Shown: one piece after another, positions 6,717-47,905 of the stretch
Position numbering within the stretch: the stretch's first letter is position 1
Layout of the letters: the number at the start of each line of letters is the position of its first letter
IMG/VR virus record: IMGVR_UViG_3300033146_004398
Coordinates: 1 to 49,224 of that record
DNA: 49,224 bases
Reading direction: 5' to 3' (one strand)
Origin: a virus
Translations under genes and position numbers: made by a program
The notes under the pieces: generated by a model
The model's input: the letters and a program-made list of their open reading frames with translations, nothing else
The model's database searches: none
What the model was told of the DNA's origin: nothing

Positions 6717-7835
6717 ATGGTTTATTTAATAGATGGAAACGCATATATTAATGTAGCTATCAATGTTACAAAGAGAATATTATATCGAGATAAATCTATT
6801 GGAAAGGAATATTATTCACAAGATATTTTTAATGAAGGAAGCTTTATATTAAAGGAAACTACTAAAATAAAATTCAGAGATTTTTGTTTAAATTATTTAG
6901 TTTCAATGATTGCACCCGTTGGTAATATTTCCAATGAGGTGCACATTGTTTTTGATTCTAAAAGTTGGAGAAAAGAGTACATTAAAAATTTCTTTGACGA
7001 TAAGCCAGATTTAAATTTCAAGTTTAAATATAAGGGTACTAGAAAAAAGGATGATCATAAGCGTTTGTTTTTTGAATACTTCCAAAAAGAAATACAACCA
7101 CATTTAATAAAAAATGCGGGTATAAATTTTCATAGAATAGATGGATTAGAGGGAGATGATATAATAGCATGCTTATGTGAAACTTTAGATGATAATATAG
7201 TTATTTATACAGTTGATAAGGATATTATACAATTAGTTAAAAATAAAAAAAAGTACACGGTTGTTATAACTCCTAAAATGATGACTAAACATAAGAAAAT
7301 ATACTTTACACAAAGGGATATTAATATAAACGAAGATTTCTTTAATTTAGATAATTCTGGCATAGGTAATGATATTAATTCAATTATTTCTAATTTTGAG
7401 AAAAAAGGATTTGTAAAATACGAAATGTGCCCCGCCGAATTATTATTGTCTAAAATATTCGGAGGAGACAAGTCAGATAACTTACCAAGGTTGCATAAAA
7501 TGACACCATCTAAGGTTAAAAAAATGACTAATTATGTATTAGAAAAATATCCCGATTCTGTTTTTGAAAAAATAGATAGTGTTTTTGAAGTAGATGATAA
7601 CGAATTTATGAACACATGCTTAGATGAAATAATAAGTTTAAATAATATTAAAGATGAAAAACTTAAAGAAGAATTAGCATACCATTTTTTACTTAATATA
7701 AAAACAATTAGGTTATCTACCAGAATGATACCACAATCTATAAATAAAAATATTAAACTTTACGAAAATATAAAGTATAATAAATTTAACTATTCTAAAC
7801 TAATAGAAACAAAAAACAAATCAGTACTTATATGA
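6717..7835 (+). CDS. rnh: RNase H / 5'-flap nuclease, T4 rnh-like
   Basis: 5'-to-3' nuclease of the FEN/PIN-like family that removes RNA primers from lagging-strand fragments. Metal-binding acidic motifs are in family order: LIDGNA at the N-terminus, VFDSKSWRK, the basic YKGTRKK arch region, GLEGDDIIA, YTVDKDIIQLV and GGDKSDNLP near the helix-hairpin-helix. At 372 residues it is longer than T4 RNase H (305). The stop overlaps the start of the GroES-like gene by four bases, giving a tight cassette with SSB upstream. High confidence in the family, good confidence in the role because of the gp32 neighbour. Confidence 0.88.
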   Translation: MVYLIDGNAYINVAINVTKRILYRDKSIGKEYYSQDIFNEGSFILKETTKIKFRDFCLNYLVSMIAPVGNISNEVHIVFDSKSWRKEYIKNFFDDKPDLNFKFKYKGTRKKDDHKRLFFEYFQKEIQPHLIKNAGINFHRIDGLEGDDIIACLCETLDDNIVIYTVDKDIIQLVKNKKKYTVVITPKMMTKHKKIYFTQRDININEDFFNLDNSGIGNDINSIISNFEKKGFVKYEMCPAELLLSKIFGGDKSDNLPRLHKMTPSKVKKMTNYVLEKYPDSVFEKIDSVFEVDDNEFMNTCLDEIISLNNIKDEKLKEELAYHFLLNIKTIRLSTRMIPQSINKNIKLYENIKYNKFNYSKLIETKNKSVLI

Positions 7836-8131
7836 AACCGTTATACGAAAGAATTTTAATAAAGCCAGTTAAAAAAGAAACTTCTACTAAATCAGGAATA
7901 CTTTTACCTGGAAAAGCTGTAAAAAGACCAAACATAGGAACAGTGGTTGCTTGTGGAGAAGGTGCTCCACATAATCCAATGAAAGTTAAAGCCGGAGATA
8001 TAGTTCTATGCAATAGATTTGCTGGAATAGATATTTCTTATGAAAATGAACCACATTACGTGGTAATGTCAAATGATGTAATCGCCATTTTAGATACCAT
8101 TGGTGAAGTTCAACTAGACGAATATGAATAA
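7832..8131 (+). CDS. groES: GroES-like co-chaperonin (gp31 counterpart)
   Basis: A 99-residue Cpn10: LYERILIKPVKKE at the start, the mobile-loop region TSTKSGILLPGKA, and the GTVVACGEG and VKAGDIVL strands are all canonical GroES features. It would cap the host GroEL. In T4, gp31 replaces GroES so that GroEL can fold the major capsid protein gp23; a gp23 homologue is present at 43164-44855. Unlike T4 gp31, which is very divergent, this protein keeps clear GroES sequence, suggesting separate capture from a bacterial host. The gene overlaps rnh upstream (4 bases) and the next gene downstream (8 bases). Confidence 0.92.
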   Translation: MKPLYERILIKPVKKETSTKSGILLPGKAVKRPNIGTVVACGEGAPHNPMKVKAGDIVLCNRFAGIDISYENEPHYVVMSNDVIAILDTIGEVQLDEYE

Positions 8132-9167
8132 ATATACAAAGTTTGATTTCAATGACATTTTAATATGTCCAGCTATACAAACTAGAATACCTTCTAGGAA
8201 AGATATTGATATTCGTTATCCAGATGGAAATCTTCCATTAATTACCGCACCAATGGATACTGTTGTTTCTAGTGAAAATGAGCACCTTTTCATAAAAAAT
8301 AATATAATTTCGTGTTTACCAAGAGGAGAAAAAGGATCAGATAAAGCCATTGAATCATATTCATTAATAGATATGGCTAAATTATATCATTCTAGACAAC
8401 TTAAGAAACACCGAGGGTACTTAATAGATATTGCTAATGGTCACATCGATGATTTAGAAACTATCACTAGAGACATTAAGAATACACATGGTGATGATAT
8501 ATTTTTAATGGTTGGTAATATTGCTAATCCAAAAACATATACAATTTTATCAGAAGCAGGAGCAGATGCCATTAGGGTTGGTATAGGAAACGGCGGCGGT
8601 TGTCTTACCACCCAACAAACCGGTGTGGGATATCCAATGGCTTCTTTAATACAAGAATGTTATAAAGAATCTATGTCATTAGATTCACCAGCTAAAATAG
8701 TAGCAGATGGTGGAATGAAAGATTATTCAGATATAATAAAGGCATTAGCGCTTGGTGCAGATTACGTTATGTTAGGATCTATTTTTAATAAAGCGCTTGA
8801 ATCTTGTGGTGAAACATATGAAGCTAATAGAAAACATAATTCATGGACTGAACCCGGAGAAAAAGTTGATCAATATAATAATCATATATATGAACTATTT
8901 AAGAGTGGAGTATGTTTTTATAAAAAATTTAGGGGAATGTCTACTAAAGAGGTTCAAAAAAAATGGGGGAATCATTTAATTAAAACCTCAGAAGGAATTA
9001 CAAAAATGCATAAGGTTGAATATACACTAGATGGATGGGTTGAAAACTTAGAACATTATCTAAGATCAGCAATGAGCTATACCGATAGTAAAAATTTAAA
9101 AGAATTTGTTGGTGCATGTAATATAATTAATATATCAATGAATTCACATAATCGATTTAAAAAATAA
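8124..9167 (+). CDS. GMP reductase / IMP dehydrogenase family enzyme
   Basis: A 347-residue TIM-barrel oxidoreductase of the GuaB/GuaC family, acting on GMP or IMP with NAD(P)H. Visible signatures: ITAPMDTVV, the phosphate-binding GIGNGGG followed by catalytic C160 (GGGCLTTQQTGVGYP), VADGGM, GADYVMLGS, and a flap with FRGMSTKEV. TGVGYP after the catalytic cysteine and the lack of CBS domains favour GMP reductase over IMP dehydrogenase, but I would not exclude the latter. It would rebalance host guanine nucleotides during phage DNA synthesis. It overlaps the GroES gene by 8 bases and closes this operon; the non-coding RNA locus begins just downstream. Confidence 0.85.
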   Translation: MNKYTKFDFNDILICPAIQTRIPSRKDIDIRYPDGNLPLITAPMDTVVSSENEHLFIKNNIISCLPRGEKGSDKAIESYSLIDMAKLYHSRQLKKHRGYLIDIANGHIDDLETITRDIKNTHGDDIFLMVGNIANPKTYTILSEAGADAIRVGIGNGGGCLTTQQTGVGYPMASLIQECYKESMSLDSPAKIVADGGMKDYSDIIKALALGADYVMLGSIFNKALESCGETYEANRKHNSWTEPGEKVDQYNNHIYELFKSGVCFYKKFRGMSTKEVQKKWGNHLIKTSEGITKMHKVEYTLDGWVENLEHYLRSAMSYTDSKNLKEFVGACNIINISMNSHNRFKK

Positions 9168-9682: not shown

Positions 9683-9802
9683 ATGAAAAAATCTAACTTC
9701 AGAAGACTTCTTAAATTTGCTAGACAATGGGATACTTTTAATTTCAAACAATATAGAAAATATTTAGATGCAAAATCTAAATGGAAAACTAAAATGAATT
9801 AA
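9683..9802 (+). CDS. 39-residue basic protein of unknown function
   Basis: ATG at 9683 to TAA at 9800-9802. The peptide begins MKKSNFRRLLKFARQWDTF and is rich in Lys, Arg and aromatic residues, with a net positive charge of roughly ten. It starts 14 bases after the T-run ending the structured RNA and its stop overlaps the stop of the convergent kinase-like gene by four bases, a compact arrangement that supports a real gene. It might be expressed from the same promoter as the RNA. It could bind nucleic acid, even that RNA; nothing in the sequence proves this. Confidence 0.45.
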   Translation: MKKSNFRRLLKFARQWDTFNFKQYRKYLDAKSKWKTKMN

Positions 9803-11049
9803 GCAGTTTTTTTAAATTCTATAGCTACTCCCATTTTAGATACACTTGCACTTTTACCCGCTTTTAATTCCTTTAGTATTTTTCTCATATCTTCTACTTC
9901 AATAGTTCTCGGTTCGGTTTTACCACCTTCTATCCAACGATTAAATGTTACTTTACCATTATCTTTATTTTGTGACAAACTCTTAAAATTTAATGCATCG
10001 GTTGATGTCCACCCCTTTACATATATAGAATATTTATACTTATTATTGCCAGTGATTACAAATATCGAATTTGATTTACTGTTATCTTTTTTAATAGTTA
10101 TGCTTTTACCACCAGAACTCCAAAACTTAGCTTCTTGTTTATTCTTAGAGGATTCATTTAGCACTGCTTCGTTTATAACAATATCTTTGAACTTATCCAA
10201 ATAAACTATTCTATCTGAATCTATATTTATTAATTGCATATTTGGTGTTATGTATTTATCTTTAACTTTAATATAGTGTACATCATTGTCCTTTATACCT
10301 AAATCACTTATGAAACTATCAATAAACTCATCATCGTCTATGCTCTTAGATAATAAATCCTTTAATCCATTCTTTGTTAATTTAGTTGATGGATCACCTT
10401 TATTCTCATCAGGTTTTTGTTTTGTTGCCTCATACTTCCATAAATATTGTTCAAATGCTTTAGTTGGATCTCTCCAATTAGGGTCTTTTTTACCTACTTT
10501 ATTTCTACCAACTATATTTTTAATTAACATATATATTGGTGCATGTAAAAGTATATTATGTTTAATATTTGGAACGTAATTCAAAATATCATTAGTGACA
10601 TCATCAAAAATTACCTTATTCCACTTACCGGTCTTAAACTCCTGTGCCATATACCAAGCAGCAGCGTTTGCAGTAGGACCAGCAACATATTCATTTTCCT
10701 TTGGGTTTGGTGGTACATCTTTACCGTCCTTTCTATATAAACCAGACACAATCCCAAAATCATGACCCTTTGCCCAATCTCTAATACTTGGTGGGTCAAA
10801 CGCCAATCTCCTTTCTTCATTTTCAGGAGAATAACCATTAAAATCATCTGATGCAATAATAACCCATTGATTGGGGTCTGTTGCTTTATGAAAAGGGATT
10901 GCGTTTAATTTCTTACTTACCCATGATTTACCAGCAGATGATGTTCCATCTATTAATATAGTAGATTTAGTATCCGATTTTTTATTTTTTACAAGAGAAT
11001 CTTCATTTAAGATCTTCCATTCTTTAAATGGTTTAATATAAGTAAGCAT
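9799..11049 (-). CDS. CPT-like P-loop kinase with capsid-targeting-like leader
   Basis: 416 residues. A P-loop, ILIDGTSSAGKSW (G35-S42), with the GTSSAGKS form typical of chloramphenicol-phosphotransferase-like kinases, is followed by IIASDDFNGY, matching the substrate-side acidic motif of that family, and VIFDDV as a likely Walker B. The N-terminus, MLTYIKPFKEWKILNED, has the shared aromatic leader and an LNE site (cut after E16). A second LNE lies near residue 298, before a separate C-terminal domain of about 115 residues that I do not recognise. The gene lies in a late-strand block directly after a small membrane peptide. I infer a kinase delivered with the virion; its substrate could be a small molecule, nucleotide or protein. 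Confidence 0.65.
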   Translation of the reverse strand: MLTYIKPFKEWKILNEDSLVKNKKSDTKSTILIDGTSSAGKSWVSKKLNAIPFHKATDPNQWVIIASDDFNGYSPENEERRLAFDPPSIRDWAKGHDFGIVSGLYRKDGKDVPPNPKENEYVAGPTANAAAWYMAQEFKTGKWNKVIFDDVTNDILNYVPNIKHNILLHAPIYMLIKNIVGRNKVGKKDPNWRDPTKAFEQYLWKYEATKQKPDENKGDPSTKLTKNGLKDLLSKSIDDDEFIDSFISDLGIKDNDVHYIKVKDKYITPNMQLINIDSDRIVYLDKFKDIVINEAVLNESSKNKQEAKFWSSGGKSITIKKDNSKSNSIFVITGNNKYKYSIYVKGWTSTDALNFKSLSQNKDNGKVTFNRWIEGGKTEPRTIEVEDMRKILKELKAGKSASVSKMGVAIEFKKTA

Positions 11050-29497: not shown

Positions 29498-29755
29498 TTA
29501 TTTTGCTAAACTATCTCTAGTTTTAGTATAGTTTTTCCATAGTTCATTATATATGTCACATGATGCACCCAGGAAATTAATAATACCTACGTATTTTCTC
29601 TTATCCGTTCCATCCATTTTTGCTATTTTCTTACCAAGCTTCTTAGCATCATTAGTTGTAAGATCCTCATCTGGATCTTTTCCTACTAATTTTTTAAGAG
29701 CACCCTTTTTTTCAAGAATAGCAAATTCACTAAATGATAGAGCCCTATTTCTCAT
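29498..29755 (-). CDS. Small protein with capsid-targeting-like leader
   Basis: 85 residues. The N-terminus, MRNRALSFSEFAILEKK, is close in form to the T4 capsid-targeting peptide (a Tyr/Phe-x-Glu-Phe core ending in Glu) and contains an ILE site after which a gp21-type protease could cut (E15). The remainder is lysine-rich and helical, including LTTNDAKKLGKKIAKMDG, and could bind DNA. It is in a late block next to the tail tube. I infer a small packaged protein; an alternative is an assembly factor for the tail. Confidence 0.5.
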   Translation of the reverse strand: MRNRALSFSEFAILEKKGALKKLVGKDPDEDLTTNDAKKLGKKIAKMDGTDKRKYVGIINFLGASCDIYNELWKNYTKTRDSLAK

Positions 29756-34622: not shown

Positions 34623-35738
34623 CTATTTCTTACCTAATACATATAACATTTTTGCGTGTTCATACAGGGCTAAACAAAATGAATCATATGAATAGTATGG
34701 TAAATTATATTCATGTGCAGTCTTCTTTACAATATTAGATATTTTATTATAATGTACATGACATATGTTTGGAAATAAGTGGTGCTCAACTTGATAATTT
34801 AATCCACCAACATACCAAGAAAATAATTTTGAGTTTGGAGCAAAATTAGTTGTATTCATTAATTGATTTTCTGACCAGCTTAGTTTAATATCGCCGTGTT
34901 CATTTGTTGTTTCAAATGAAGAAGTTGGCATCACATGTGCCAATTGAAAAATTAAAGATAAAGTTATTCCTGAAATAAAATGCATTAATAAAAAACATAA
35001 TATTGTTTGCCACCACAATAAGCATGAAAAAAATAATGGCAAACCTAACGTGAATATAAAGTATAATGTTTTAGTTATAATTAGTGTACGCAAAAGATTA
35101 TCACTAGTAGTTTCTTGAGTTCTTATTAAATTTTTTTTCTTATATCTTTTCCATTGAGAATAATCCTTTGTTGTAGCCCACACCATTGTCATCATTCCAT
35201 ATAAAAACCAAACGTATATAAATTGAAATCTATGCCACTTTAATAACTTTTGTTTTGGTGACATTCTTATTAATGACTCTTTATTAATATCTTCATCCAT
35301 ATCCGCTATGTTTGTATAAGTATGATGCAATAAATTATGTTGAATTTTCCAGTTAACATCATTGCCCCCTATTAGCCAGATTAATTTACCTAATAATGAA
35401 TTTACTATCTTATTTTTTGAATATGATCCATGATTTGCATCATGCATAATGGATAGTCCAATTCCTGACATTCCAAATCCCATTAATATCCACATCAATA
35501 TTGTTAATCCGGACGATTCTATATTGGAAATAATTATTGTGAATGGTATTAAATAGAGCAAAAGCATGAATATAGTTTTAAATACCATATTTGAATTTGC
35601 ATACTTTGATATTTTCTTTTCTTTAAAATAGGCATTAACTCGTTTTATAAGATCTTTATAAAACATATTTTTCCTATCTTTTTTAAATTTTACTATACGA
35701 TAGGAATCTGACATAGTTATAAATAATTTATTATTCAA
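34623..35738 (-). CDS. Membrane fatty acid desaturase
   Basis: 371-residue integral membrane di-iron desaturase, introducing a double bond into lipid acyl chains. The three histidine boxes are intact: H99-x3-H103 (HDANH), H134-x3-H138-H139 (HNLLHH) and Q316-x2-H319-H320 (QVEHH). Four or so hydrophobic segments lie around residues 53-97, 118-126, 217-242 and 246-270. The QxxHH third box is that of front-end / linoleoyl-CoA-type enzymes; no cytochrome b5 domain is fused. On the late strand, as the last gene after the MoxR/VWA module. Probably a host-derived metabolic gene changing membrane fluidity during infection. Confidence 0.88.
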   Translation of the reverse strand: MNNKLFITMSDSYRIVKFKKDRKNMFYKDLIKRVNAYFKEKKISKYANSNMVFKTIFMLLLYLIPFTIIISNIESSGLTILMWILMGFGMSGIGLSIMHDANHGSYSKNKIVNSLLGKLIWLIGGNDVNWKIQHNLLHHTYTNIADMDEDINKESLIRMSPKQKLLKWHRFQFIYVWFLYGMMTMVWATTKDYSQWKRYKKKNLIRTQETTSDNLLRTLIITKTLYFIFTLGLPLFFSCLLWWQTILCFLLMHFISGITLSLIFQLAHVMPTSSFETTNEHGDIKLSWSENQLMNTTNFAPNSKLFSWYVGGLNYQVEHHLFPNICHVHYNKISNIVKKTAHEYNLPYYSYDSFCLALYEHAKMLYVLGKK

Positions 35739-35749
35739 CTAAAACTTAA

Positions 35750-36154
35750 TTAGTCGTCGTCTACGCCCCAATCGTCGTCATCTCCAAATAATATATCATC
35801 CTCTATTTCACCACCGTCGTCTTCTATTCCAAGTTTTTGTCTTTCTTCTGAATCTAACTCCTCTGCATATTCTTGACCAGACTCTTGTCTTTCTAAAGTT
35901 TCTACACATTCATCATACCATGGTTCTAAAGCTTCAACAATAGCTTTAATAGAGTCACCATCGGTTATAACCTCTTTTATTTTTGAAATATTATCACTTT
36001 GATGTATCCAATCCTTTAATTCATTAGTTGCTGCTACGGGGTTCTTCATGGAGCCCAGTGTTTCTGCAACTTTATCCTTTAAAGCATTAATTATTTCTGC
36101 ATTACCTGCATGTTCTAGAATTAATTTAAATTTATTATAATCTTTTATCCACAT
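35750..36154 (-). CDS. Acidic protein with capsid-targeting-like leader
   Basis: 134 residues. The leader MWIKDYNKFKLILEHAG has the shared aromatic pattern and an ILE site (cut after E14). The middle is helical; the tail, from about residue 95, is extremely acidic (runs of D and E ending DDDDWGVDDD). It lies 10 bases downstream of the AAA+ ATPase gene and is probably the last packaged member of the module. Highly acidic tails occur on DNA mimics and on scaffold-interacting proteins; I cannot choose between these. Confidence 0.5.
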   Translation of the reverse strand: MWIKDYNKFKLILEHAGNAEIINALKDKVAETLGSMKNPVAATNELKDWIHQSDNISKIKEVITDGDSIKAIVEALEPWYDECVETLERQESGQEYAEELDSEERQKLGIEDDGGEIEDDILFGDDDDWGVDDD

Positions 36155-36164
36155 TATTATTATA

Positions 36165-38309
36165 TTATTTTTTTCTTTGTTTTATTGAATCAAAAAAGTT
36201 TTTAAACGAGGCTGGCCATTTATCTTCAAGCTTTTTAATCATTTTATGATACGCATTTATAAATAGTTCTTTCTTCTCTTTATATTCTTCTTTATCGTTT
36301 GAATTATTTATCTTATTATCAAGTGCTTTTTCTATTCTATTGTACATTGGGAACCCAGTTTTTATAAAATTAGTTATTGCTTGTGTTTCATCATTCATAT
36401 TTTTTAAAAAATTAAGATAATTAAAAAACTCTGGAATACCATATTGACCTCTCTTAGATGATGCATATCCTGAAATAGCTGATAGAAATGCAAATCCCTC
36501 TTCGCTTATTCTACTTCCTTTTCTAGTTGAATCTGATAATCCTTTTTCTCCAAGCTGCTTAATTATTTTATCTCTGTCTGCTTTTTCTAATTTTTTCCAA
36601 TCAAATACCTTTTTAACTAAACTTAAATCCACCTTACTTTTTAAGTTTAGAAATTTCATAAATGCGTTACCTGCAACGTCTCCTAAATCACCATTAACCG
36701 TTTTACTTACCCAATCAGGTAAAGCTTTATATAAATCTACCAATGATTTATATTTAGTATTAGTTCTATGATCTCCTTTATACATTGCAGTAGATAGTGC
36801 TATTCCTAAATCTGACCATACTCGCGGTGCCGGCTGTACTCCTTGTCCAGCGGTGTCTACTTCTCCTTCTTTTTTTCTATAAAAATATTGATATTCTCCT
36901 CTTAAATCTTCTTTACCAGATGCACTATCAATTATATTTTTTAAACCCTCATTATCATATTCGTTCATTTCTAAGAAATCTATTATTTCTTGTGGTATTT
37001 TCCATTTCTTAGTATTTGTATCATCTTCATCTTCATTATCCCATACTCTACCTTCTGCTCTAGCGTAATCCGATATCCAAGTTGGTAATGAAGGAACCAA
37101 ATTAAATACTCTAAATCTACCGGTTGATGCAACAGCTGCATCCATTTCAGTTATTGCATTAGATGTAGTAACATCTTTATCTCTATTACATGCCGCCACT
37201 ATATGCCAATTTTGAGGTAATCTATATGTTCCAATTGTTCTTAAACTTATAAAGCTTAAACATGATCCTAATACAGATTGATTTGCTCTATTTATTTCAT
37301 CTAAAAATATAATTCCACCTATTTCATTGGGTTGTTCTTCTCCTACAACTCCTTTTTTACTAAATTGATCTGTATATTCAGTTTTACCGGTTTTTATATT
37401 TTCCCTTGGAAAAATTGCTGGTGGTGCAAATGTAGTTTTATCATCTTTGATATGCGGAAGTCCTAAAAAGTCAACATTTTCCATATTAGCAAGAGGAATT
37501 GATATAACTGGAATATTCAATCTTCTACCCGCTTGTAATACAACTTCTGTTTTTCCTATACCGGGTGCACCCCATATTAATGGTGCTTTATATATTCCAC
37601 CTTTGGATTGTCCATCTATTATACTAACTATTTGATCTACTAATCCTTCTATACCAATATTTTCACATGAAACATCTACGTCTGATCTTAAATAACCTCC
37701 AGTAGAACCCCTAGTATCATTACTTTCAAATGTTTTTATATACTTTAAACTTTCTTCTATATCAATATCTGTTGTTAAATCAATTTCATCAGAAACTGGA
37801 TCTTCAGTACCACGTTTAGTATAAAAATCATATGGAGATTTTCCTTCTATATCTGAGTGTTTAAAATCATCTAATTCTATATCTAAACCCTTTGGCATTT
37901 CTACTTTTCTAGGAATTGTTATTTTCCACGCCTTTCCATTTCCCATTAAATTTTTACCAGCGGATTGACCCTTTATCGTATTCCAATACCATGCATTTGT
38001 TCCTGAATAGTATCCACCTTCTTCTAGTTTAAGTTCACCCGAATTTGGATCAGATACTATTTCTTTACCTAAGTTATCGCTTACACCTTTTCCTTTTCCA
38101 AGTAAGCTATTAAATATACTTTTTAATTTATTTCCAGATTCTTTAACGGTTTTTACTAAAGAAGCATACCACCCAAGTGCATCCTTAGATTTTTCTGGTA
38201 TTTTTTTATCTTTTGCTTGTATAGACTTTCCAAATTCATCTCCTAAGTCTCTTGATGCTGAATCCTGTTTCCAATCTTCAAATATTTCTACGTATTTGCT
38301 CATAATCAT
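36165..38309 (-). CDS. MoxR-type AAA+ ATPase, putatively head-packaged
   Basis: 714 residues. AAA+ core with Walker A GAPGIGKT (247-254), Walker B IIFLDE (333-338), sensor-1 region AACNRD (373-377) and an arginine-finger area near STGRFRV; this order is that of MoxR-type ATPases, which work with VWA-domain partners to remodel proteins or insert metal. About 210 residues precede the core, and a long helical C-terminal region follows it. The leader, MSKYVEIFEDW from the second Met (38303), holds an IFE site. The second Met gives an 18-base gap to a late box, so I prefer it as the true start. The VWA and metallopeptidase partners are directly upstream. Confidence 0.75.
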   Translation of the reverse strand: MIMSKYVEIFEDWKQDSASRDLGDEFGKSIQAKDKKIPEKSKDALGWYASLVKTVKESGNKLKSIFNSLLGKGKGVSDNLGKEIVSDPNSGELKLEEGGYYSGTNAWYWNTIKGQSAGKNLMGNGKAWKITIPRKVEMPKGLDIELDDFKHSDIEGKSPYDFYTKRGTEDPVSDEIDLTTDIDIEESLKYIKTFESNDTRGSTGGYLRSDVDVSCENIGIEGLVDQIVSIIDGQSKGGIYKAPLIWGAPGIGKTEVVLQAGRRLNIPVISIPLANMENVDFLGLPHIKDDKTTFAPPAIFPRENIKTGKTEYTDQFSKKGVVGEEQPNEIGGIIFLDEINRANQSVLGSCLSFISLRTIGTYRLPQNWHIVAACNRDKDVTTSNAITEMDAAVASTGRFRVFNLVPSLPTWISDYARAEGRVWDNEDEDDTNTKKWKIPQEIIDFLEMNEYDNEGLKNIIDSASGKEDLRGEYQYFYRKKEGEVDTAGQGVQPAPRVWSDLGIALSTAMYKGDHRTNTKYKSLVDLYKALPDWVSKTVNGDLGDVAGNAFMKFLNLKSKVDLSLVKKVFDWKKLEKADRDKIIKQLGEKGLSDSTRKGSRISEEGFAFLSAISGYASSKRGQYGIPEFFNYLNFLKNMNDETQAITNFIKTGFPMYNRIEKALDNKINNSNDKEEYKEKKELFINAYHKMIKKLEDKWPASFKNFFDSIKQRKK

Positions 38310-38320
38310 ATTATATACAT

Positions 38321-38328
38321 TATTTATT
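38321..38328 (-). promoter_or_regulatory. Late promoter-like box AATAAATA before the MoxR-type gene
   Basis: TATTTATT on the + strand, AATAAATA on the - strand, 18 bases before the second Met of the ATPase. It overlaps the last codons of the VWA gene, so could be coincidental. Confidence 0.35.
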
Positions 38329-39418
38329 TCTTAATATCTTTCATAAACTTATTAAAGTTTAATGGAATAACTTTTCCAAATGGTATATTATTTGGTCCAC
38401 CGTTACCATCTACGGTTCCAAAAACAGTTGGACTATCGTAGTGTTTTTCAGGATAATCACCATATAACCATGCCCATAGGAAATTTTTACCCCTATTTGC
38501 GTATTTTGTTGAAGTTGGCATTCCATTCCATAATCCATCGCTAAAGAATATTACTAAAGATGGATTGAGATTATATTTTTCTAAACCTTCGAAGAACGTA
38601 TCTATATTATTCCAACCTGAACGTATATCCCCTATCTTAAAGTCGCTTTTTCCACCTTTTACTTCTATTAATCTATATGCTTCATGATCCCATAGCATTA
38701 TATTATAATCTTTTATATTATTTTCATTCATAATATTTGATATTTCACTAGCAATTAGCATTATCTCGTCTGGACTCATAGATCCACTTGTATCATATAC
38801 TATTAGCATATCTGATATTGCATCTTTCTGTTTTCTTCGTCCAGGTATCCCTCTAAAATCTCCTCCTCTTCCTGCGAATCTTCTATTTGGATAAACTTGA
38901 TTTGTTTTCTTAGATACTGAATTAATATACCTACGTAGTATTCTTTTCCAATTTACTAATGATTTTGATCTTTCTATCATTACTTCTCCAGATCCACTTC
39001 CACCCTTGAACATATCTTTCATTGTTCCTTGTTTTTCTTCTTCTCTTCGTCTTCTTTTTTCAATATTTTCACTTTGTTTTTGTGAAATATCACTTTTAGA
39101 TGGTTGTGTGGCTTCTCCGTCTTTGTAATCTCCTTCATTTCCTTCAGTACTACCTTCTTTTTCTAAATTACTGCTAGTTTCTCCTTTATTCCAATCTTTT
39201 TCATTTTCTATTAGTTTTCCTATTGCCTCTGCTAAAGCTGCATCTGCTTCCGATAATTCTTGGGGTTCTCCAGCGTCCATTTCACCCGGAGGAGCTATAT
39301 TTATAGCTGGATTACCATTCGCATCCCTTGTAATTGGTCCACCGTCTCCACCGCTTCCTCCACCTCCTTGTGATGGTTCATATACTATTTTTACTGCATT
39401 TTCTTTAGATATCTTCAT
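38324..39418 (-). CDS. VWA-domain protein (C-terminal half of a DUF2201-like system)
   Basis: 364 residues. The C-terminal half is a von Willebrand A domain with a full MIDAS: D209-T-S-G-S213 (YDTSGSM), a later Asp in LWDHEAY, and FFSDGLW. The N-terminal 150 residues are low-complexity, Gly- then Glu/Lys-rich (e.g. EKRRRREEEK). In bacteria, DUF2201-type proteins join a metallopeptidase-like domain and a VWA domain in one chain beside a MoxR ATPase; here the two halves are separate adjacent genes (this one and 39423-40214), four bases apart. The N-terminus MKISKENAVKIVYEPS has VYE but not the [I/L]xE pattern, so packaging is less clear for this member. Confidence 0.75.
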   Translation of the reverse strand: MKISKENAVKIVYEPSQGGGGSGGDGGPITRDANGNPAINIAPPGEMDAGEPQELSEADAALAEAIGKLIENEKDWNKGETSSNLEKEGSTEGNEGDYKDGEATQPSKSDISQKQSENIEKRRRREEEKQGTMKDMFKGGSGSGEVMIERSKSLVNWKRILRRYINSVSKKTNQVYPNRRFAGRGGDFRGIPGRRKQKDAISDMLIVYDTSGSMSPDEIMLIASEISNIMNENNIKDYNIMLWDHEAYRLIEVKGGKSDFKIGDIRSGWNNIDTFFEGLEKYNLNPSLVIFFSDGLWNGMPTSTKYANRGKNFLWAWLYGDYPEKHYDSPTVFGTVDGNGGPNNIPFGKVIPLNFNKFMKDIKK

Positions 39419-39422
39419 ATTA

Positions 39423-40214
39423 TTAAGATTTTAATATTTCTTTTGCTCTTTCTAATGAAATTTCTTCCACTTCAAAATCTTCATTTTCATCAATTCCATT
39501 AACTATTCCCCATGTTTTATTTTCTTTATCAAATATAACATCTCCAATTTCTATTTCATGATTACCTTCTCCATCTCCTCCATCGTCATCTTCGGGTTCC
39601 TGTGGATTATTTTTAATTATATCAACTAGTTTCATAAAGATTGCTTCTGCTGTGTACCCGTCCCATTCTTCTTTCTTAAAAATATATCCATCAGCCGCTG
39701 CTATAGGTTTATCGAAAAATAAACCATCTTTTAATGGTACTACATCTTTCATATTTGCTATATGTGGATTTATTTCTAAATCCGTAGCAATATTCCATAA
39801 AGTTTGATGTAATCTTGGGTTTATTCCTTCTATAGTTCCTGGGTGCCTAATAAAATGCTCCCATTGATTGTGCATTATTTCATGTAGTATAACAAATGTA
39901 AATTCATCCTGTGATATTCTTTCTCCAAAAAATGGATTTATAAACAAGTGTACACCGTCTGTTGCCATTGTATTTATTGGATTTCCGCCAATATTGGTAA
40001 CCATTCTAACTTCTAAATCAGATAGGAGTGCATCTGGATGATAAAAATGTCTACTTGGGTTTCTTAACCAGAATCTAGTATAATTAAATTTTTCTATAGT
40101 ATTATCGGTAGCTCTTTTAAGAGCATTATCTAACTCTTCAAATAGTTTAATATGATGAGAACTTTTTGAAATATTTCTATTCCAATTTACATAATTTTTA
40201 ATATAAATGGCCAT
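39423..40214 (-). CDS. Putative metallopeptidase (N-terminal half of a DUF2201-like system)
   Basis: 263 residues. H111-E112-I-M-H115 (ILHEIMHNQWEH) and NIATDLEIN (D145) form the zinc site seen in the putative metallopeptidase domain of DUF2201 proteins. MATDGVHLFINP upstream is also typical. The N-terminus MAIYIKNYVNWNRN shares the aromatic leader of packaged proteins, with an LFE site further in (IKLFEEL, E26). The C-terminal 60 residues contain a very acidic Gly/Asp stretch and a small beta domain (GDVIFDKENKTWGIVNG). It is the first gene of the three-gene module with VWA and MoxR-type partners. Confidence 0.72.
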   Translation of the reverse strand: MAIYIKNYVNWNRNISKSSHHIKLFEELDNALKRATDNTIEKFNYTRFWLRNPSRHFYHPDALLSDLEVRMVTNIGGNPINTMATDGVHLFINPFFGERISQDEFTFVILHEIMHNQWEHFIRHPGTIEGINPRLHQTLWNIATDLEINPHIANMKDVVPLKDGLFFDKPIAAADGYIFKKEEWDGYTAEAIFMKLVDIIKNNPQEPEDDDGGDGEGNHEIEIGDVIFDKENKTWGIVNGIDENEDFEVEEISLERAKEILKS

Positions 40215-40254: not shown

Positions 40255-40533
40255 ATGGAAAAAATAATAGAAACTCTATCCTTAAAAAATAAAAGAACCC
40301 TTTGTTTAGATCTCGGTGATACATATATTACTATAGAAAATAGAGGAACTTTTAATGGAAAAAGACAATTTTCATGGTCAGCACTAGCGCCCACTGAGGG
40401 AATGGAATGTTTTTACGATAGTACATTAATAGGAGAAACTGGATTAAAAACAAGAATAGAACTATTAAGTGGTGGAAAAATATCAGATATGCAAAAACAT
40501 GCAATAGACTTATTTCTTGCTAGCCGCTCTTAG
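40255..40533 (+). CDS. Small protein of unknown function, opposite the late block
   Basis: 92 residues with strands such as TLCLDLGDTYITIENRGTF and a C-terminal helix. No family recognised. It lies alone on the + strand between two - strand genes; its 3' end overlaps the 3' end of the zincin gene at 40510 by 24 bases. GTATAATA at 40242-40249 sits five bases before the ATG, as the downstream half of the ECF-like element does at 24822, but no AAACC is found 15 bases further up. Confidence 0.5.
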   Translation: MEKIIETLSLKNKRTLCLDLGDTYITIENRGTFNGKRQFSWSALAPTEGMECFYDSTLIGETGLKTRIELLSGGKISDMQKHAIDLFLASRS

Positions 40534-41289
40534 TATATTTTTTTCTTTTTCAGTTAAATCAGACCAACTTCCAGCAGAAAGTTTATCTAAAATTTTATCT
40601 ATTATAGATTGATTATTAAAGGTAGGTGCTTTATTAATAGTTGTAGTTCCCCTGGCAGTTGGTGTGTTATATTGCCTATATGTAATAGGTTTTGGCTTAA
40701 TTTTAAGCTTATTATACATATATTCATTTACTTCTTTAACAGACGTCATTCCTTTTTTCTTAACCTCTTCTCTAAGACCTTCTAAATGACTTTTAAAGTA
40801 TGATTTATCAAATTTACTATAAAATGGTAATATTTCAGTTTTATTTTTTATATCATGACTTTTTAGTAGATTATTTGCTTTTAAAACTGCCAATCTATCT
40901 GCAACTAATTCTATATTCATTAATAAATTAACAGCTTCATCTATATCTATATTAGAATTATATGCATCCCACACAACGTCTTTTCCATACTTAGAATATT
41001 GATATTGATGAACTATTTCATGTAATATAGTATATAATGTTTTACCCAGATCACCACTCAGTATTGATTTATTTATTATACATTCATCTGTTTTAGATAT
41101 ACCCATTGCACCATATATTGTATCAAACTTAATCGCAGGACACCCTGAAGCAACTATATAATCTGATAATTCTTGAAACATATCGTCATTTCCTGGATAT
41201 GCCTCTTGAAGTGCCATTATAAAGTATGATAATCCATTTGTATTATTAGATGCTTCAAATAGTCTTGAATTTAATATAAAGTTTTTCAT
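40510..41289 (-). CDS. HExxH zincin-like metalloprotease with capsid-targeting-like leader
   Basis: 259 residues. H90-E91-I-V-H94 (ILHEIVHQYQY) followed by E127 in NIELVADRLA fits a gluzincin/minigluzincin zinc site (HExxH ... ExxAD). The leader MKNFILNSRLFEAS has an LFE site with Ala after it, the best match here to a T4 gp21 cut (after E12). The C-terminal third is Lys-rich with a Thr/Gly linker and a last helical segment. It is a separate gene from the DUF2201-like peptidase and not obviously related to it in sequence. I infer a protease delivered with the head contents; the substrate is unknown. Confidence 0.62.
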   Translation of the reverse strand: MKNFILNSRLFEASNNTNGLSYFIMALQEAYPGNDDMFQELSDYIVASGCPAIKFDTIYGAMGISKTDECIINKSILSGDLGKTLYTILHEIVHQYQYSKYGKDVVWDAYNSNIDIDEAVNLLMNIELVADRLAVLKANNLLKSHDIKNKTEILPFYSKFDKSYFKSHLEGLREEVKKKGMTSVKEVNEYMYNKLKIKPKPITYRQYNTPTARGTTTINKAPTFNNQSIIDKILDKLSAGSWSDLTEKEKNILRAASKK

Positions 41290-43163: not shown

Positions 43164-44855
43164 TTAGACTGAAGCGTTGCTAGGAGCAGCTCCACCTGTA
43201 AGAACAGCTAGATCTCCAAGAACGTCCATGTTAACATACTGAGTTTCTGGATGCCATCCAGCTTCAGTTATTGCATAACGTGACTTCATTCCAATTTTTG
43301 GTGAGAAAGTACCTTCAGAAATAGTTTGAAGTGATTCTGCCATAATATATGGTAAGAATTTAACTCCAGGCTCTTCGTCAGATCCTTTACGTCCGATAGT
43401 GATTCTACCATCACCAAATCGTAGATTAGGATCAACATAAACCTGTACTCCATAAACCTTTCCTGCTGGGTAAAGATTACCAGCAACTCCACTCATGTCC
43501 GAAGGAACTTGAGCAATTGAGTAACCAGCTACATCTGCAAGAGCAGAAGCAACTCTACCATTAGTGATCATGAATGTACCTGGACCAAATCTACCCCTGT
43601 GGTAAATTAAGTTTGCCAATTCAAGAACCTTGGTAACAAGACGTCTTTGAATTGTTGATACGTTTTCAAAACCACCAACACCAGCGTTTAAGTCTAGTGT
43701 AGTAATTCCAGCACCCTCAACTTGAGTAACTTCCACATTGTGGTCGCCAGCTAAAGTAAAGATTCTGTCAGTTAATCGCTTATTGATTGACTGAGCCAGT
43801 TCGTTAACTGCAACGTTCTCTAACATAGAGATAACGTCGAAGTTCCAAACTCGGTTAAGATCTTGAATCTGCTCAACAGATGCTGAGATAGAAACTTGAT
43901 CTGACTTAGCTTCAACAAATTTAGTGAACATTCTAAGACCCATTTGACGGAATCTTGATAATTCACCTTGTTCCCTAGTCATTGAATCAGGAATCTGACC
44001 ATTAGTATCCGTAAAATAAGGACCTGTAAAGTCAGTAGTAGCGTAATCTTCATCAGGAACTGATGTAAAACCAGAAATATGGTTTTCCAAAGCAGAAACT
44101 AAAGAAATAACTATACCAGCCATTGCAATTGGTGCAACAGCAGCAGCAGCATTATCGCCAGCAGCTGTCATATTACCAGAACCTTGAAGGTCTGCAGTAA
44201 CAGTTGTACCAGCATCATCTTCAACAACTTTAATGATCATTTGACCATCAACTCTTGAGAATCCAACAAATCTATAAATAGCTGTTGAACCAGCAGAGAA
44301 TATGATGTTCGTTGCTCCTGAAGTAGGAGTAGTTCCAATAGCAGGAACAGTTGTAAAATCATCAGCTGTGATTCCTTCCAATTTAACCATATATGGCTCA
44401 AAATCGGTATCTGTTCGACCACCGGCATACAAATAATCTAAGTAAGGTAAAAACCCTACTGGAGAATCCATAGGCACAACGGGAACAAGATCAAATCCAA
44501 TCGTCTTTGCAGCTACTTGAATAGCAACTGGAAGTAACGATGGAAATTTATCTCCAGAACCAGAATCAGAATACGAACCTTTAACACCTGCGTCCGAAAA
44601 CGGAGCCTGTCCAGGAGTAGGAGCGACTGGGTCACCCATACCAAGTACAGAACCAGGTTGTTGGAAGAATAATCCTGGTGCAGTCTGTTCGAAAAGTGGA
44701 GCGCTATTATCAAAAATAGCATGGTTATGAGCATATTCTGCTAACCATTCTTGTTTTCCACTCTCTTTAGTTACACCATATTGCTCTAGCAACGGTTGCC
44801 ATGTATTGAGAACTCTAGAATCTGAAGTACGTTTAAAAACTTTTGTACGTGACAT
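43164..44855 (-). CDS. 23: Major capsid protein, gp23-like
   Basis: 563-residue HK97-fold capsid precursor. The N-terminal LNTWQPLLEQYG matches the T4 gp23 start region (NKWKPLLEGEG), and VPVVPMDSPVGFLPYLDYLYAG matches its PMNSPTGQVFALRAVYG segment; in between, SAPLFEQTAPG carries an LFE site (after E56) corresponding to the T4 maturation cut after E65. GDEEPGVKFLPYIMAESLQT near the C-terminus also fits gp23. Base composition is less AT-rich than neighbouring genes, as expected for a very highly expressed protein. It lies 17 bases after the protease-scaffold gene, so the 21-(22)-23 order of T4 is kept. Confidence 0.92.
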   Translation of the reverse strand: MSRTKVFKRTSDSRVLNTWQPLLEQYGVTKESGKQEWLAEYAHNHAIFDNSAPLFEQTAPGLFFQQPGSVLGMGDPVAPTPGQAPFSDAGVKGSYSDSGSGDKFPSLLPVAIQVAAKTIGFDLVPVVPMDSPVGFLPYLDYLYAGGRTDTDFEPYMVKLEGITADDFTTVPAIGTTPTSGATNIIFSAGSTAIYRFVGFSRVDGQMIIKVVEDDAGTTVTADLQGSGNMTAAGDNAAAAVAPIAMAGIVISLVSALENHISGFTSVPDEDYATTDFTGPYFTDTNGQIPDSMTREQGELSRFRQMGLRMFTKFVEAKSDQVSISASVEQIQDLNRVWNFDVISMLENVAVNELAQSINKRLTDRIFTLAGDHNVEVTQVEGAGITTLDLNAGVGGFENVSTIQRRLVTKVLELANLIYHRGRFGPGTFMITNGRVASALADVAGYSIAQVPSDMSGVAGNLYPAGKVYGVQVYVDPNLRFGDGRITIGRKGSDEEPGVKFLPYIMAESLQTISEGTFSPKIGMKSRYAITEAGWHPETQYVNMDVLGDLAVLTGGAAPSNASV

Positions 44856-44872: not shown

Positions 44873-46861
44873 TTATTTGCGGTTTTCCGCACCTCTCATA
44901 AGAGAAGTTATGTAAGACTCAGAGTAACCTCTGGTCATATCAACTACCCGATTTGCCGGGACTGTACCTTCTTTACTTTGGCTTTCGTTGATTTTCTGTA
45001 ATTTTCTATTTTCTTTTTCTCTTTCTACTCTTTCGTTAATTCCTCTTACATCAAGATCATCCCAAAAGGCTTTTACTTGATAAGGAGTATTAAGAGTATA
45101 TAATTGAGCTTTAGTATGAACCATGTTTTGCTCATTTACAAGCATTTTACTCCATGTAGCTTTATATTCATTTGGCATAAACCTTAAATGAATAGGAATG
45201 TTCATACTCTTTTGTTCAACTACTGAATTAATAATATTAGTAACATCTGATTCATTAAACCATACTGAAGCGTTTGTAGCTTCAATAACAGCTTGTTTAG
45301 TAGTTGTATCTAAATTATAAAATGATGTTTTAGCATCTTCTCCTAAAACCTTTAAGAAAGGATATTTGTTTTCTAGTACTGCTGTTGCAGAATTATCTTT
45401 AACGGTTTTAAGTACGTTATCTAATCCTTCAGATATCATATCTATTTGAGCACCTTCATCTAATTTATGTACACCGTCTAGAATACCTGCATTCTTTTTA
45501 AATTTACCACTATTTAATGATTCAGCGATATATTCAGCATAACTAATTCCTTTAGATGACTTATCTGCTACATATTCCATGTATTCTCTATTGAGATTTG
45601 CATTTTCAGAAAGATATTCAGCAAATTCAATTGATTTATTAGCTCCTTCAGCTACATATTCAGTATATTGAAGTCCTTTGTCTAATTCTTCAGCAATATA
45701 AGATTGATAATTAATACTTTTGTTTAAGTTCTCTTTTAAATAATCTTGATAGTTAATACTCTTATTAAGATTTTCACCAAGATAATTTTGATAATTAACA
45801 CTCTGATTAACCTTTTCAGCTAAGTAGTTTTGATATTCAATTGAGTTATTAGTATTTTCAGCAACATGCTCAGTATATTTAACAGATTGATTTAATTTGT
45901 TGGCAAGATAATCTGTATATTTTGCCATTGTTTCAACTTGCTCTGCTAAGTAGTTTACATATTTCCCCATTTTAGAATTAGGTGAAATTGAAACATTTGT
46001 TGGTTTAGAAGTAGAATCCTCTTCATTAATCTTTTTAGCTTCGTCTAATTCTGCTTTAAAGGACTCAAATTGTTTCTTTACCACTTCAGAATATTGATTC
46101 ATATCATTTCTAGTAACATAATCGTTCATCTTATTATTATTATTTTGAATATCTAAGGTTTTACTTAGTTTATTATTATTTTTGTTATTTATCTTGTAAA
46201 CTTTATAGTTATTTGAAAAATTTAAGTTTTCAGATATTTCTTCTAATTTATTTTTATTTATAAAAGAATTTTCCTTTAATATATTAAAATTTTCAGTTAT
46301 TAATTTAAAATTATCTTGTAAAGATTCATTAACTGTTTTCTTTAAAACAGCCTCAGTAAAACCTGGTTCTGCAACTAAGTCATATGTGAAAATTTTATGA
46401 AGTTTTACTTTACCTTCATTTACACCGGTTAATACTTGTCCAGCTGCTCTTGAAGATATTGATATGTTTACTCCACCGTCTACTAATGCCTTAGCTATTT
46501 TTCCATTTGGAGTATTTTCTAAAATTCTTAATTTTATATTTACCTTATCCCCACCGTCATGTTCCAGTCCTTCTATAATATGTGAAGCACTTTTTAAAGT
46601 TACTTCAAATGAAGGCGGATGATCTAAATCCCCAACAAGTTGTCGTGCTTCTATTTTTTCTTTAAGGTAATCTAAGTGTGGAAGATATTCATCCTTTTCG
46701 TATATTCTTTGATTGTTGTTCTTTTGACCAAATACTGCACAAACACCTTCAAGTATTGTGTTATTATCACCTTTACTTTTAACAGTAAGTTTTTCGCCAA
46801 TGTTTTCAACGATTAATACGTAATTATCATTATTAGTTGAATTTATATTTGTGCTATTCAC
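44873..46861 (-). CDS. 21: Prohead protease (gp21-like) fused to a repeat-containing scaffold
   Basis: 662 residues. Residues 1-180 are a T4 gp21-type maturation protease: VFGQKNNNQRIYEKDEY, VGDLDHPP with H81, SASHIIEGLEHD, and ISISSRAAG with nucleophile S136 or S137. T4 gp21 stops at 212 residues; here the chain continues through an Asn-rich linker (about 215-244) and a helical region into eleven tandem 14-residue repeats (300-453), then a helical C-terminal domain. The extension is in the place of T4 gp22, the core scaffold, and I take it as such. Met245 (codon 46127-46129), just after the linker, could be an internal start giving a separate 418-residue scaffold, as in lambda C/Nu3. A TATAAATA late box precedes the gene. 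Confidence 0.85.
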   Translation of the reverse strand: MNSTNINSTNNDNYVLIVENIGEKLTVKSKGDNNTILEGVCAVFGQKNNNQRIYEKDEYLPHLDYLKEKIEARQLVGDLDHPPSFEVTLKSASHIIEGLEHDGGDKVNIKLRILENTPNGKIAKALVDGGVNISISSRAAGQVLTGVNEGKVKLHKIFTYDLVAEPGFTEAVLKKTVNESLQDNFKLITENFNILKENSFINKNKLEEISENLNFSNNYKVYKINNKNNNKLSKTLDIQNNNNKMNDYVTRNDMNQYSEVVKKQFESFKAELDEAKKINEEDSTSKPTNVSISPNSKMGKYVNYLAEQVETMAKYTDYLANKLNQSVKYTEHVAENTNNSIEYQNYLAEKVNQSVNYQNYLGENLNKSINYQDYLKENLNKSINYQSYIAEELDKGLQYTEYVAEGANKSIEFAEYLSENANLNREYMEYVADKSSKGISYAEYIAESLNSGKFKKNAGILDGVHKLDEGAQIDMISEGLDNVLKTVKDNSATAVLENKYPFLKVLGEDAKTSFYNLDTTTKQAVIEATNASVWFNESDVTNIINSVVEQKSMNIPIHLRFMPNEYKATWSKMLVNEQNMVHTKAQLYTLNTPYQVKAFWDDLDVRGINERVEREKENRKLQKINESQSKEGTVPANRVVDMTRGYSESYITSLMRGAENRK
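45503..45964 (-). repeat. Eleven tandem 42-bp units coding 14-residue scaffold repeats
   Basis: Residues 300-453 of the protease-scaffold protein divide exactly into eleven 14-residue units without gaps. Examples are NYQNYLGENLNKSI, NYQDYLKENLNKSI and EYQNYLAEKVNQSV; the consensus is xYxxYLAExxNxSI with Tyr at positions 2 and 5. Fourteen residues equal two heptads, so a long regular helix or coiled coil is expected. Central units are the most alike, edges diverged. Confidence 0.9.
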
Positions 46862-46918: not shown

Positions 46919-47905
46919 TTAATATAAATCCTTATTGGATAATATATCTTCTATAATAAGCCTATCTTTTTTATTAAGTTTGTCTAAATCCGGAGACTTC
47001 ACAACTATTTTAGCTATATAATCTCCTATACGATTGTTTGAATTTAATATTCCATTTCCTTTTACAGTAAACTTCAATGAGCTTAAATCCTTTGGGTTCT
47101 TTATATCGATTTTATATTTTTTATTTAATAAAGAATCAAATGTAAACTCTTCATTATTAAACATGGCATTGTTTAAATTTATATTAACTTCTTGTATAAC
47201 ATTTCCATTTTCTAGTTTAAATATGTATTTTGAAGTTATTTCTATATGAACATTTAGTTTACCTATTAGATAAAACTCTTCTGCGCCTCCCCATACGTTT
47301 ATTCTTTCCCCTTTGTTTTCGTTTCCAAGTCCATCTATAGCTATTATAATATAATCTTTTCCATTTATATTTTGTATGTTATATTTTCTTTTTCTTAAAT
47401 CAATTTTAAATTGTATCTTTTTATAATCTTTAGATTTATCAAACTTAGTTCTTTCAAATTCTATTAAAATATCTTTTTCATTTAATAGATCATCTAAGTC
47501 TACCCGCGCGTTTACTTTTATATCTAGATGACCGGTGTTTATATTTCTAGCAAATCCACTGGATCTTTGTCTATTTCCAGTAGGATTTCCCGGATTTCCC
47601 CATACGTTATTAACGAAGTCATCAAAGGAAAAACCACCGAACCCATCGGTAGAACCTCTACTTGGTCTTCTTCCACCGAAACCTCCATTGGAATTAGCAA
47701 AGTCATATTCTGCTTTCTTATCTTTATCTCCTAATACTGAATATGCCTCAGCTATATCCTTAAATTTTTCTTCTGCTTCGGGGTTATCTTTATTTTTATC
47801 AGGATGATATTTTTTAGCTAACTTTCTATACGCCTTTTTTATCTCAGGATCAGTGCTATTTTGCTTAACACCAAGCAAATCATAATATTTTTTTTGATTT
47901 TTCAT
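46919..47905 (-). CDS. dnaJ: DnaJ/CbpA-like co-chaperone
   Basis: 328 residues. A J-domain (about 5-70) with H34-P35-D36 that stimulates Hsp70 ATPase, then a Gly/Phe-rich linker (about 72-115, [11 protein letters not shown]), then two beta-sandwich client-binding domains. The cysteine-rich zinc finger of classical DnaJ is absent, as in CbpA. It would recruit host DnaK. Placement directly before the protease-scaffold and capsid genes on the late strand suggests help in folding head proteins, alongside the GroES-like protein at 7832; that is inference. Probably host-derived. Confidence 0.9.

Follow-up and report, generated by a model that had tools for sequence, protein, structure and literature searches.

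A MoxR-VWA-metallopeptidase module with putative capsid-targeting leaders in a T4-like jumbo phage lineage

Introduction

What use would a phage with a T4-type head have for a MoxR-type AAA+ ATPase, a VWA protein and a zincin metallopeptidase-like protein encoded side by side, two of them opening with a putative capsid-targeting leader? This question is raised by IMG/VR record IMGVR_UViG_3300033146_004398, of which positions 1-49,224 were analysed (49,224 bases; hereafter the window). The window is a fragment of a T4-like phage that encodes gp23, a gp21-type protease and a tail sheath protein, and the deposited phages nearest to its gp23 are uncultured jumbo phages, Lak megaphages and Tenacibaculum phage PTm1. 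An earlier sequence-only reading had proposed that the three proteins are injected with the DNA as a remodelling or proteolytic machine or, alternatively, serve as an assembly chaperone.

A MoxR ATPase paired with a peptidase-VWA protein has been described in jumbo phages, where it was proposed to take part in virion assembly, with peptidolytic processing (Iyer et al. 2021, PMC7824862), and genes 24 and 25 of N4 are core genes of the N4-like group (Schitoviridae) whose function is unexplained (PMC4193335). The MoxR and DUF2201-type pair, itself unexplained, thus belongs to the core genes of N4-like phages and is also frequent in jumbo phages. As the pair is already known, it is the leader that looks new; a literature search found no account of a packaged MoxR protein in tailed phages. 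The reading favoured here, with a probability of roughly 55 %, is that the three proteins make up a single remodelling machine of ATPase, VWA adaptor and DUF2201-type zincin, which is accessory head cargo, is ejected and acts early on host proteins.

Composition of the module

The triad consists of near-gapless open reading frames (ORFs) on the minus strand, located exactly where the sequence-only reading had placed them:

36165..38309, minus strand: MoxR-type AAA+ ATPase, 714 amino acids (aa); AAA_5, 36.3 bits (cut-off 22); phrog_1297, 2e-35
37548..37571, minus strand: Walker A motif GAPGIGKT, ATPase residues 247-254, by motif reading
38277..38309, minus strand: putative capsid-targeting leader of the ATPase, MIMSKYVEIFE/DW (the slash marks the predicted cut), with an L/I-x-E site
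38324..39418, minus strand: VWA protein, 364 aa, C-terminal half of a DUF2201-type protein; phrog_1314 positions 134-388, 1.1e-23
39423..40214, minus strand: zincin metallopeptidase-like protein, 263 aa, N-terminal half of a DUF2201-type protein; DUF2201_N, 45.3 bits (cut-off 23.2)
39870..39884, minus strand: HEIMH zinc-binding motif, peptidase residues 111-115, near-invariant in 39 homologues
40137..40214, minus strand: putative leader of the peptidase, MAIYIKNYVNWNRNISKSSHHIKLFE/EL, which matches the leader pattern

The AAA core of the ATPase spans approximately residues 216-411 and is preceded by an N-terminal extension of about 215 residues. The Walker A motif begins at residue 247, as previously read, and is followed by Walker B (IFLDE at 334), sensor 1 (AACNR at 372) and TGRF at 396. 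The protein therefore has the Walker motifs, sensor 1 and arginine-finger region of a MoxR-type ATPase in an AAA_5-type domain, and its VWA-domain partner is encoded by the adjoining gene, as at most relatives' loci. A search of solved structures with the ATPase sequence gave no match.

The other two proteins correspond to the halves of DUF2201 (PF13203 and PF09967), which are two ORFs in the window and not one polypeptide. The split suspected earlier was borne out by phrog_1314, of which positions 34-162 match the peptidase (1.5e-21) and positions 134-388 the VWA protein, and many relatives have a single polypeptide. The VWA protein has a Gly-rich N-terminal tail and a VWA domain at approximately residues 204-320. 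It scored 17.5 bits against the Pfam cut-off of 26.4 for the C-terminal VWA-like domain of DUF2201 (PF09967), and its predicted fold resembled VWA/I domains (Foldseek E 3e-5). Within its metal ion-dependent adhesion site (MIDAS), D209-x-S211-x-S213 and D294 are present and were invariant in 40 homologues. The peptidase also has a small beta-rich C-terminal domain (approximately residues 213-260). Its AlphaFold2 model (mean predicted local distance difference test score 79) matched selecase, BlaR1 and other zincins weakly in a fold search (best E 0.03, best Z 6.2). HEIMH, the basis of the earlier metallopeptidase assignment, is followed by WNIATDLEIN at residues 140-149, and both HExxH and WNxAxD are conserved in homologues, the sequence features expected of a putatively active zincin.

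Distribution of the module and two classes of ATPase

Single-sequence queries of IMG/VR with the window ATPase or peptidase retrieved no close relatives, and alignment queries were needed. Alignment-based scans detected 62 peptidase loci and 79 ATPase loci, from which hidden Markov models were built. With these models, the ATPase, peptidase and VWA domains were found together in most loci, the commonest form being an ATPase plus a fused peptidase-VWA protein. The triad is therefore co-conserved, a check that the sequence-only reading had set for itself. Split forms were detected in the window, in L164, L169/L180, L239 and L189-L193 and in the G019/G026 group; this distribution on the tree requires several changes between fused and split forms.

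Two classes of ATPase were apparent. Short ATPases (327-401 aa) have the AAA domain almost at the start, occur in N4-like and other phages and are leaderless, while in long ATPases (approximately 470-740 aa) an extension of some 110-220 residues precedes the AAA domain and opens with a leader. In a tree of 42 ATPase cores, a branch with support of 98/99 separated short ATPases (19 on one side) from long ones. Two nominally short proteins, L165 and L209, fell among the long ATPases; their ORFs lack the extension, and L165 is cut by a contig end. The window ATPase grouped with L164, L169 and L165 (89/86), and L164 and L169 share with the window the split and the order of the genes, their ATPases and peptidases likewise beginning with leader-like N-termini. 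An interpretation of the two classes as T4-like versus other phages was rejected, since on most contigs, which are fragments, no head gene was matched.

This distribution also bears on whether the phage carries, by chance and without a phage-specific role, a MoxR-VWA system that is host-derived or of defence type. Such pairs are known in bacterial conflict systems (PMC7159879), and phrog_1314 also matches some cellular genomes. However, the window proteins belong to the phage families phrog_1297 and phrog_1314, and the module is widespread in phages with its partners co-conserved. PADLOC gave only marginal scores (E 0.004-0.008) and no defence-system match, and NCBIfam gave nothing convincing. 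Membership in a known anti-phage defence system thus found no support, the defence association mentioned by the sequence-only reading found no counterpart among known systems, and chance carriage is considered very improbable.

Two further AAA+ observations were made. Most large gp23 relatives (L083-L101) encode another protein of approximately 660 aa with two AAA_5 matches, and the record of phage PA5oct labels its homologous ATPase 'ESI-MS/MS'.

N-terminal leaders and the head protease

The T4 protease gp21 cuts its substrates after L/I-x-E, and an N-terminal capsid-targeting sequence about 10 residues long is enough for foreign proteins to be packaged into T4 heads and delivered (PMC9026906). 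In T4 internal protein III (IPIII), residues 4 and 7 act in targeting and residues 8 and 10 in processing, giving the spacing Y..F[LI].E. The corresponding head genes of the window are as follows:

43164..44855, minus strand: gp23 major capsid protein; PF07068, 131.9 bits
44688 (residue 56), minus strand: predicted propeptide end of gp23, LFE/Q, at a place kept in relatives as LFE, VFE, LNE or INE
44873..46861, minus strand: gp21-type S77 prohead protease with a long C-terminal extension; PF03420, 41.5 bits; phrog_207, 7e-35

The gp21-type protein is the enzyme expected to remove the leaders. With leader ends of IFE/ on the ATPase and LFE/ on the peptidase, and with a gp21-type protease encoded by the same phage, the window has two of the sequence features of putative T4-type capsid targeting. 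A first, loose leader expression matched 13 of the 52 window ORFs, with clear false positives among them; taken alone, the window leader is therefore suggestive but no proof, and the argument depends on relatives.

Among relatives, a leader-like start was found in 15 of 21 ATPase and 16 of 25 peptidase N-terminal clusters of the long group, compared with 0 of 22 and 0 of 18 in the short group and approximately 6-11 % at internal control positions; as the rows are related, these counts do not represent independent events, the patterns were drawn up once the sequences had been viewed, and start codons were mechanically assigned. The strict T4-type pattern [YFW]..[FYW][LIVM].E was enriched 8-fold among the 20 N-terminal residues of all proteins encoded on long-ATPase loci; on short-ATPase loci the enrichment was 1.4-fold. 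Long-group leaders end in [LIVM]xE, the known gp21 motif being L/I-x-E, and L164 and L169 end the leader at the same place in the ATPase (...SLNE/ and ...PMFE/). The putative leaders noticed earlier on the ATPase and peptidase of the window thus recur on both proteins in most long-ATPase lineages and are absent from short-ATPase lineages, and at family level the leader exceeds chance.

Leader ends also resemble, by eye, the gp23 site of the same phage. The propeptide site of gp23 is LFE/Q or VFE/Q in close relatives of the window and LNE/ or INE/ in others. In the window, LFE/Q of gp23 is accompanied by IFE/D on the ATPase, LFE/E on the peptidase and LFE/A on p259, a further protein described below; in G064, G070, G074, G065 and G083, gp23 has LNE/ and the ATPase LNE/ or VNE/. 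The recurrence on both proteins, despite otherwise different N-termini, and the likeness to gp23 argue against a module that acts as freshly synthesised protein in the infected cell, its leaders being incidental or serving another localisation. Leaderless versions in N4-like phages, cyanophages and PA5oct-type phages are consistent with such a cytoplasmic role, as is the assignment of N4 24/25 to the middle genes (PMC4193335), and it is regarded as improbable. Taken together with its likeness to the phage's own gp23 site, the leader pattern may predict head cargo in uncultivated jumbo phages.

Two proteins adjacent to the triad also have leaders:

35750..36154, minus strand: 134-aa acidic protein downstream of the ATPase, leader IKDYNKFKLILE/HA; the ORF directly upstream of the L166 ATPase starts MITDFSKFKLILE/HP
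40510..41289, minus strand: p259, a second leadered HExxH protein (HEIVH, 259 aa) outside the triad, leader MKNFILNSRLFE/AS; relatives near gp23 in L007-L012 keep [IL]FE/[AS]

The acidic protein is possibly further cargo. Elsewhere in the window, an 85-aa protein (29498-29755, minus strand) has the leader LSFSEFAILE/KK and homologues on 62 of 67 gp23-relative loci, where starts of the type SYGEFLLE/KK recur. A small leadered protein with a VYRG stretch and no Pfam match lies close to the module in L185 (3965-4420). The gp21-type protease has 662 aa, with the S77 domain at 36-160, near the N-terminus, and the long C-terminal extension is conserved in relatives; it is possibly a protease-scaffold fusion.

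Linkage to head genes and accessory status

The sequence-only reading had suggested linkage of the triad to gp23 as a check. None of the 67 gp23-relative loci had the triad within 10 kb of gp23, so that the proximity is confined to the window and linkage was rejected. The description of the locus as a late block was similarly loose: the triad is near gp23 in the window, but plus-strand genes lie between them.

The module was found in 2 of 43 records of gp23 relatives (G019 and G026), far from gp23. In the relative G013 (270,136 bases; approximately 271 kb), a joined-end probe corresponded to two pieces 1,032 bases apart in G014, G015 and G028, which indicates that G013 is practically complete and that the module is really absent. 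At the triad locus of G019/G026, the records G013, G017, G021 and G029 keep the flanking genes, several of them leadered, without the triad. Absence from a near-complete relative and from a conserved locus indicates that the module is accessory and not essential head machinery. This gain/loss pattern resembles, by analogy, the variable internal-protein complement of T4-like phages.

These results bear on the possibility of a prohead-internal assembly factor, in which ATPase and peptidase would enter the scaffold by means of their leaders and remodel or cleave head or tail proteins during maturation. No action in the next host would be needed, and the role would be that proposed for jumbo phages (PMC7824862), minus the leader. 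Virion assembly with peptidolytic processing has been put forward for the MoxR and peptidase-VWA pair itself; p618 and p892 of Acidianus two-tailed virus (ATV) are proposed to act in tail development (PMC4124505); and in roseophages the counterparts of N4 24/25 adjoin a middle-expressed second structural module (PMC4193335). However, the module is missing from relatives with the same gp21-gp23 pair, the near-complete 271-kb genome included, and a step required for the head should not be as dispensable as a cassette gained and lost at a conserved locus. The assembly-chaperone alternative of the sequence-only reading is thereby weakened for this lineage, and is considered unlikely.

Proposed function and comparison with known systems

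Under the favoured reading of ejected head cargo, the ATPase and peptidase would be made with N-terminal leaders, recognised by comparison, for attachment to the scaffold core, and would take the VWA protein along with them. The gp21-type protease would cut after [LI]xE, in agreement with the site match, and free the enzymes inside the head, from which they would be ejected together with the DNA in the manner of T4 internal proteins and Alt. With cellular ATP, the ATPase ring might then pull on or dismantle a host protein picked via the VWA domain, and the zincin would cut, as is suggested by MoxR-VWA pairs. Comparison of sequences makes packaging into the head probable, while action in the host after ejection is only marginally favoured, if at all. 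For the specific proposal that a T4-like jumbo lineage pre-loads its capsids with a MoxR ring, a VWA adaptor and a zincin via cleavable leaders, for delivery at DNA entry, the odds appear even. Of the sequence-only interpretation, the MoxR-VWA-metallopeptidase module, the split DUF2201 and the putative leaders were upheld, and the gp23 linkage was not.

Several observations weigh against the cargo reading. The motif [LI]xE has low information and start codons were assigned mechanically; the window ATPase leader is short and, like that of the peptidase, lacks the strict Y..F[LI].E spacing of T4 IPIII, which is present in several relatives. The VWA protein has no leader, in line with what the sequence-only reading implied, and its MIDAS, described earlier as complete, is not fully canonical, since the usual Thr (GGT) aligns to Asn (SGWNN, from residue 267) although DxSxS and the later Asp are present. 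The peptidase halves of L184 and L191 have QGxxH, having lost the HE of HExxH; their sequences suggest a non-catalytic version, and proteolysis is therefore not always required. Three records with long ATPases (G057, G061 and G073) had no gp23 or S77/phrog_207 match, and the pair of the published example Atu_ph07, with the ATPase ASV44729.1, is leaderless. Finally, PA5oct and G110 have gp23, a gp21-type protease and a leaderless ATPase. A T4-type head thus does not require packaging of the module, and an explanation of the leader as a mere consequence of gp23/gp21 was rejected.

Known systems share parts of this arrangement. The jumbo-phage pair, exemplified by ASV44729.1/ASV44728.2 of Atu_ph07, has the same three domains and genomic pairing as the window, but its peptidase-VWA is fused and, in Atu_ph07, its ATPase is short and leaderless, whereas in the window the peptidase and VWA parts are split, the ATPase has a long N-terminal extension and two proteins have leaders. 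N4-like phages have a homologous ATPase and a DUF2201-type partner side by side, as in the window, but N4 24/25 are without leader, with a fused partner and middle-expressed. A precedent for a viral MoxR ATPase in the virion is p618 of ATV, a major virion component that binds the VWA protein (p892); this viral MoxR-VWA pair resembles that of the window, but lacks a peptidase, belongs to an archaeal virus without a T4-type head and has a proposed tail role (PMC4124505). T4 internal proteins and Alt share with the window a leader ending in L/I-x-E, a variable accessory cargo and the presence of gp21 (PMC9026906, PMC3012670); the internal proteins of T4 are small, a restriction-enzyme inhibitor being among them, while the cargo here would be an AAA+ ATPase and a zincin. 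Bacterial MoxR-VWA chaperone pairs such as RavA-ViaA likewise combine an ATPase with a VWA cofactor, but have no zincin partner and no head leader.

If true, a head-delivered AAA+/peptidase machine would widen the known tasks of internal head proteins, and if one lineage packages the pair, the place and time of its action become testable by virion proteomics.

Other genes in the window

A fatty acid desaturase (34623-35738, minus strand; PF00487, 1.2e-37) is encoded directly downstream of the module. A 416-aa protein (9799-11049, minus strand) has a leader-like N-terminus followed by the P-loop GTSSAGKS. Genes at 7832-8131, 8124-9167 and 46919-47905 encode HSP10-like (by eye), IMPDH/GMP reductase-like and DnaJ-like proteins, respectively.

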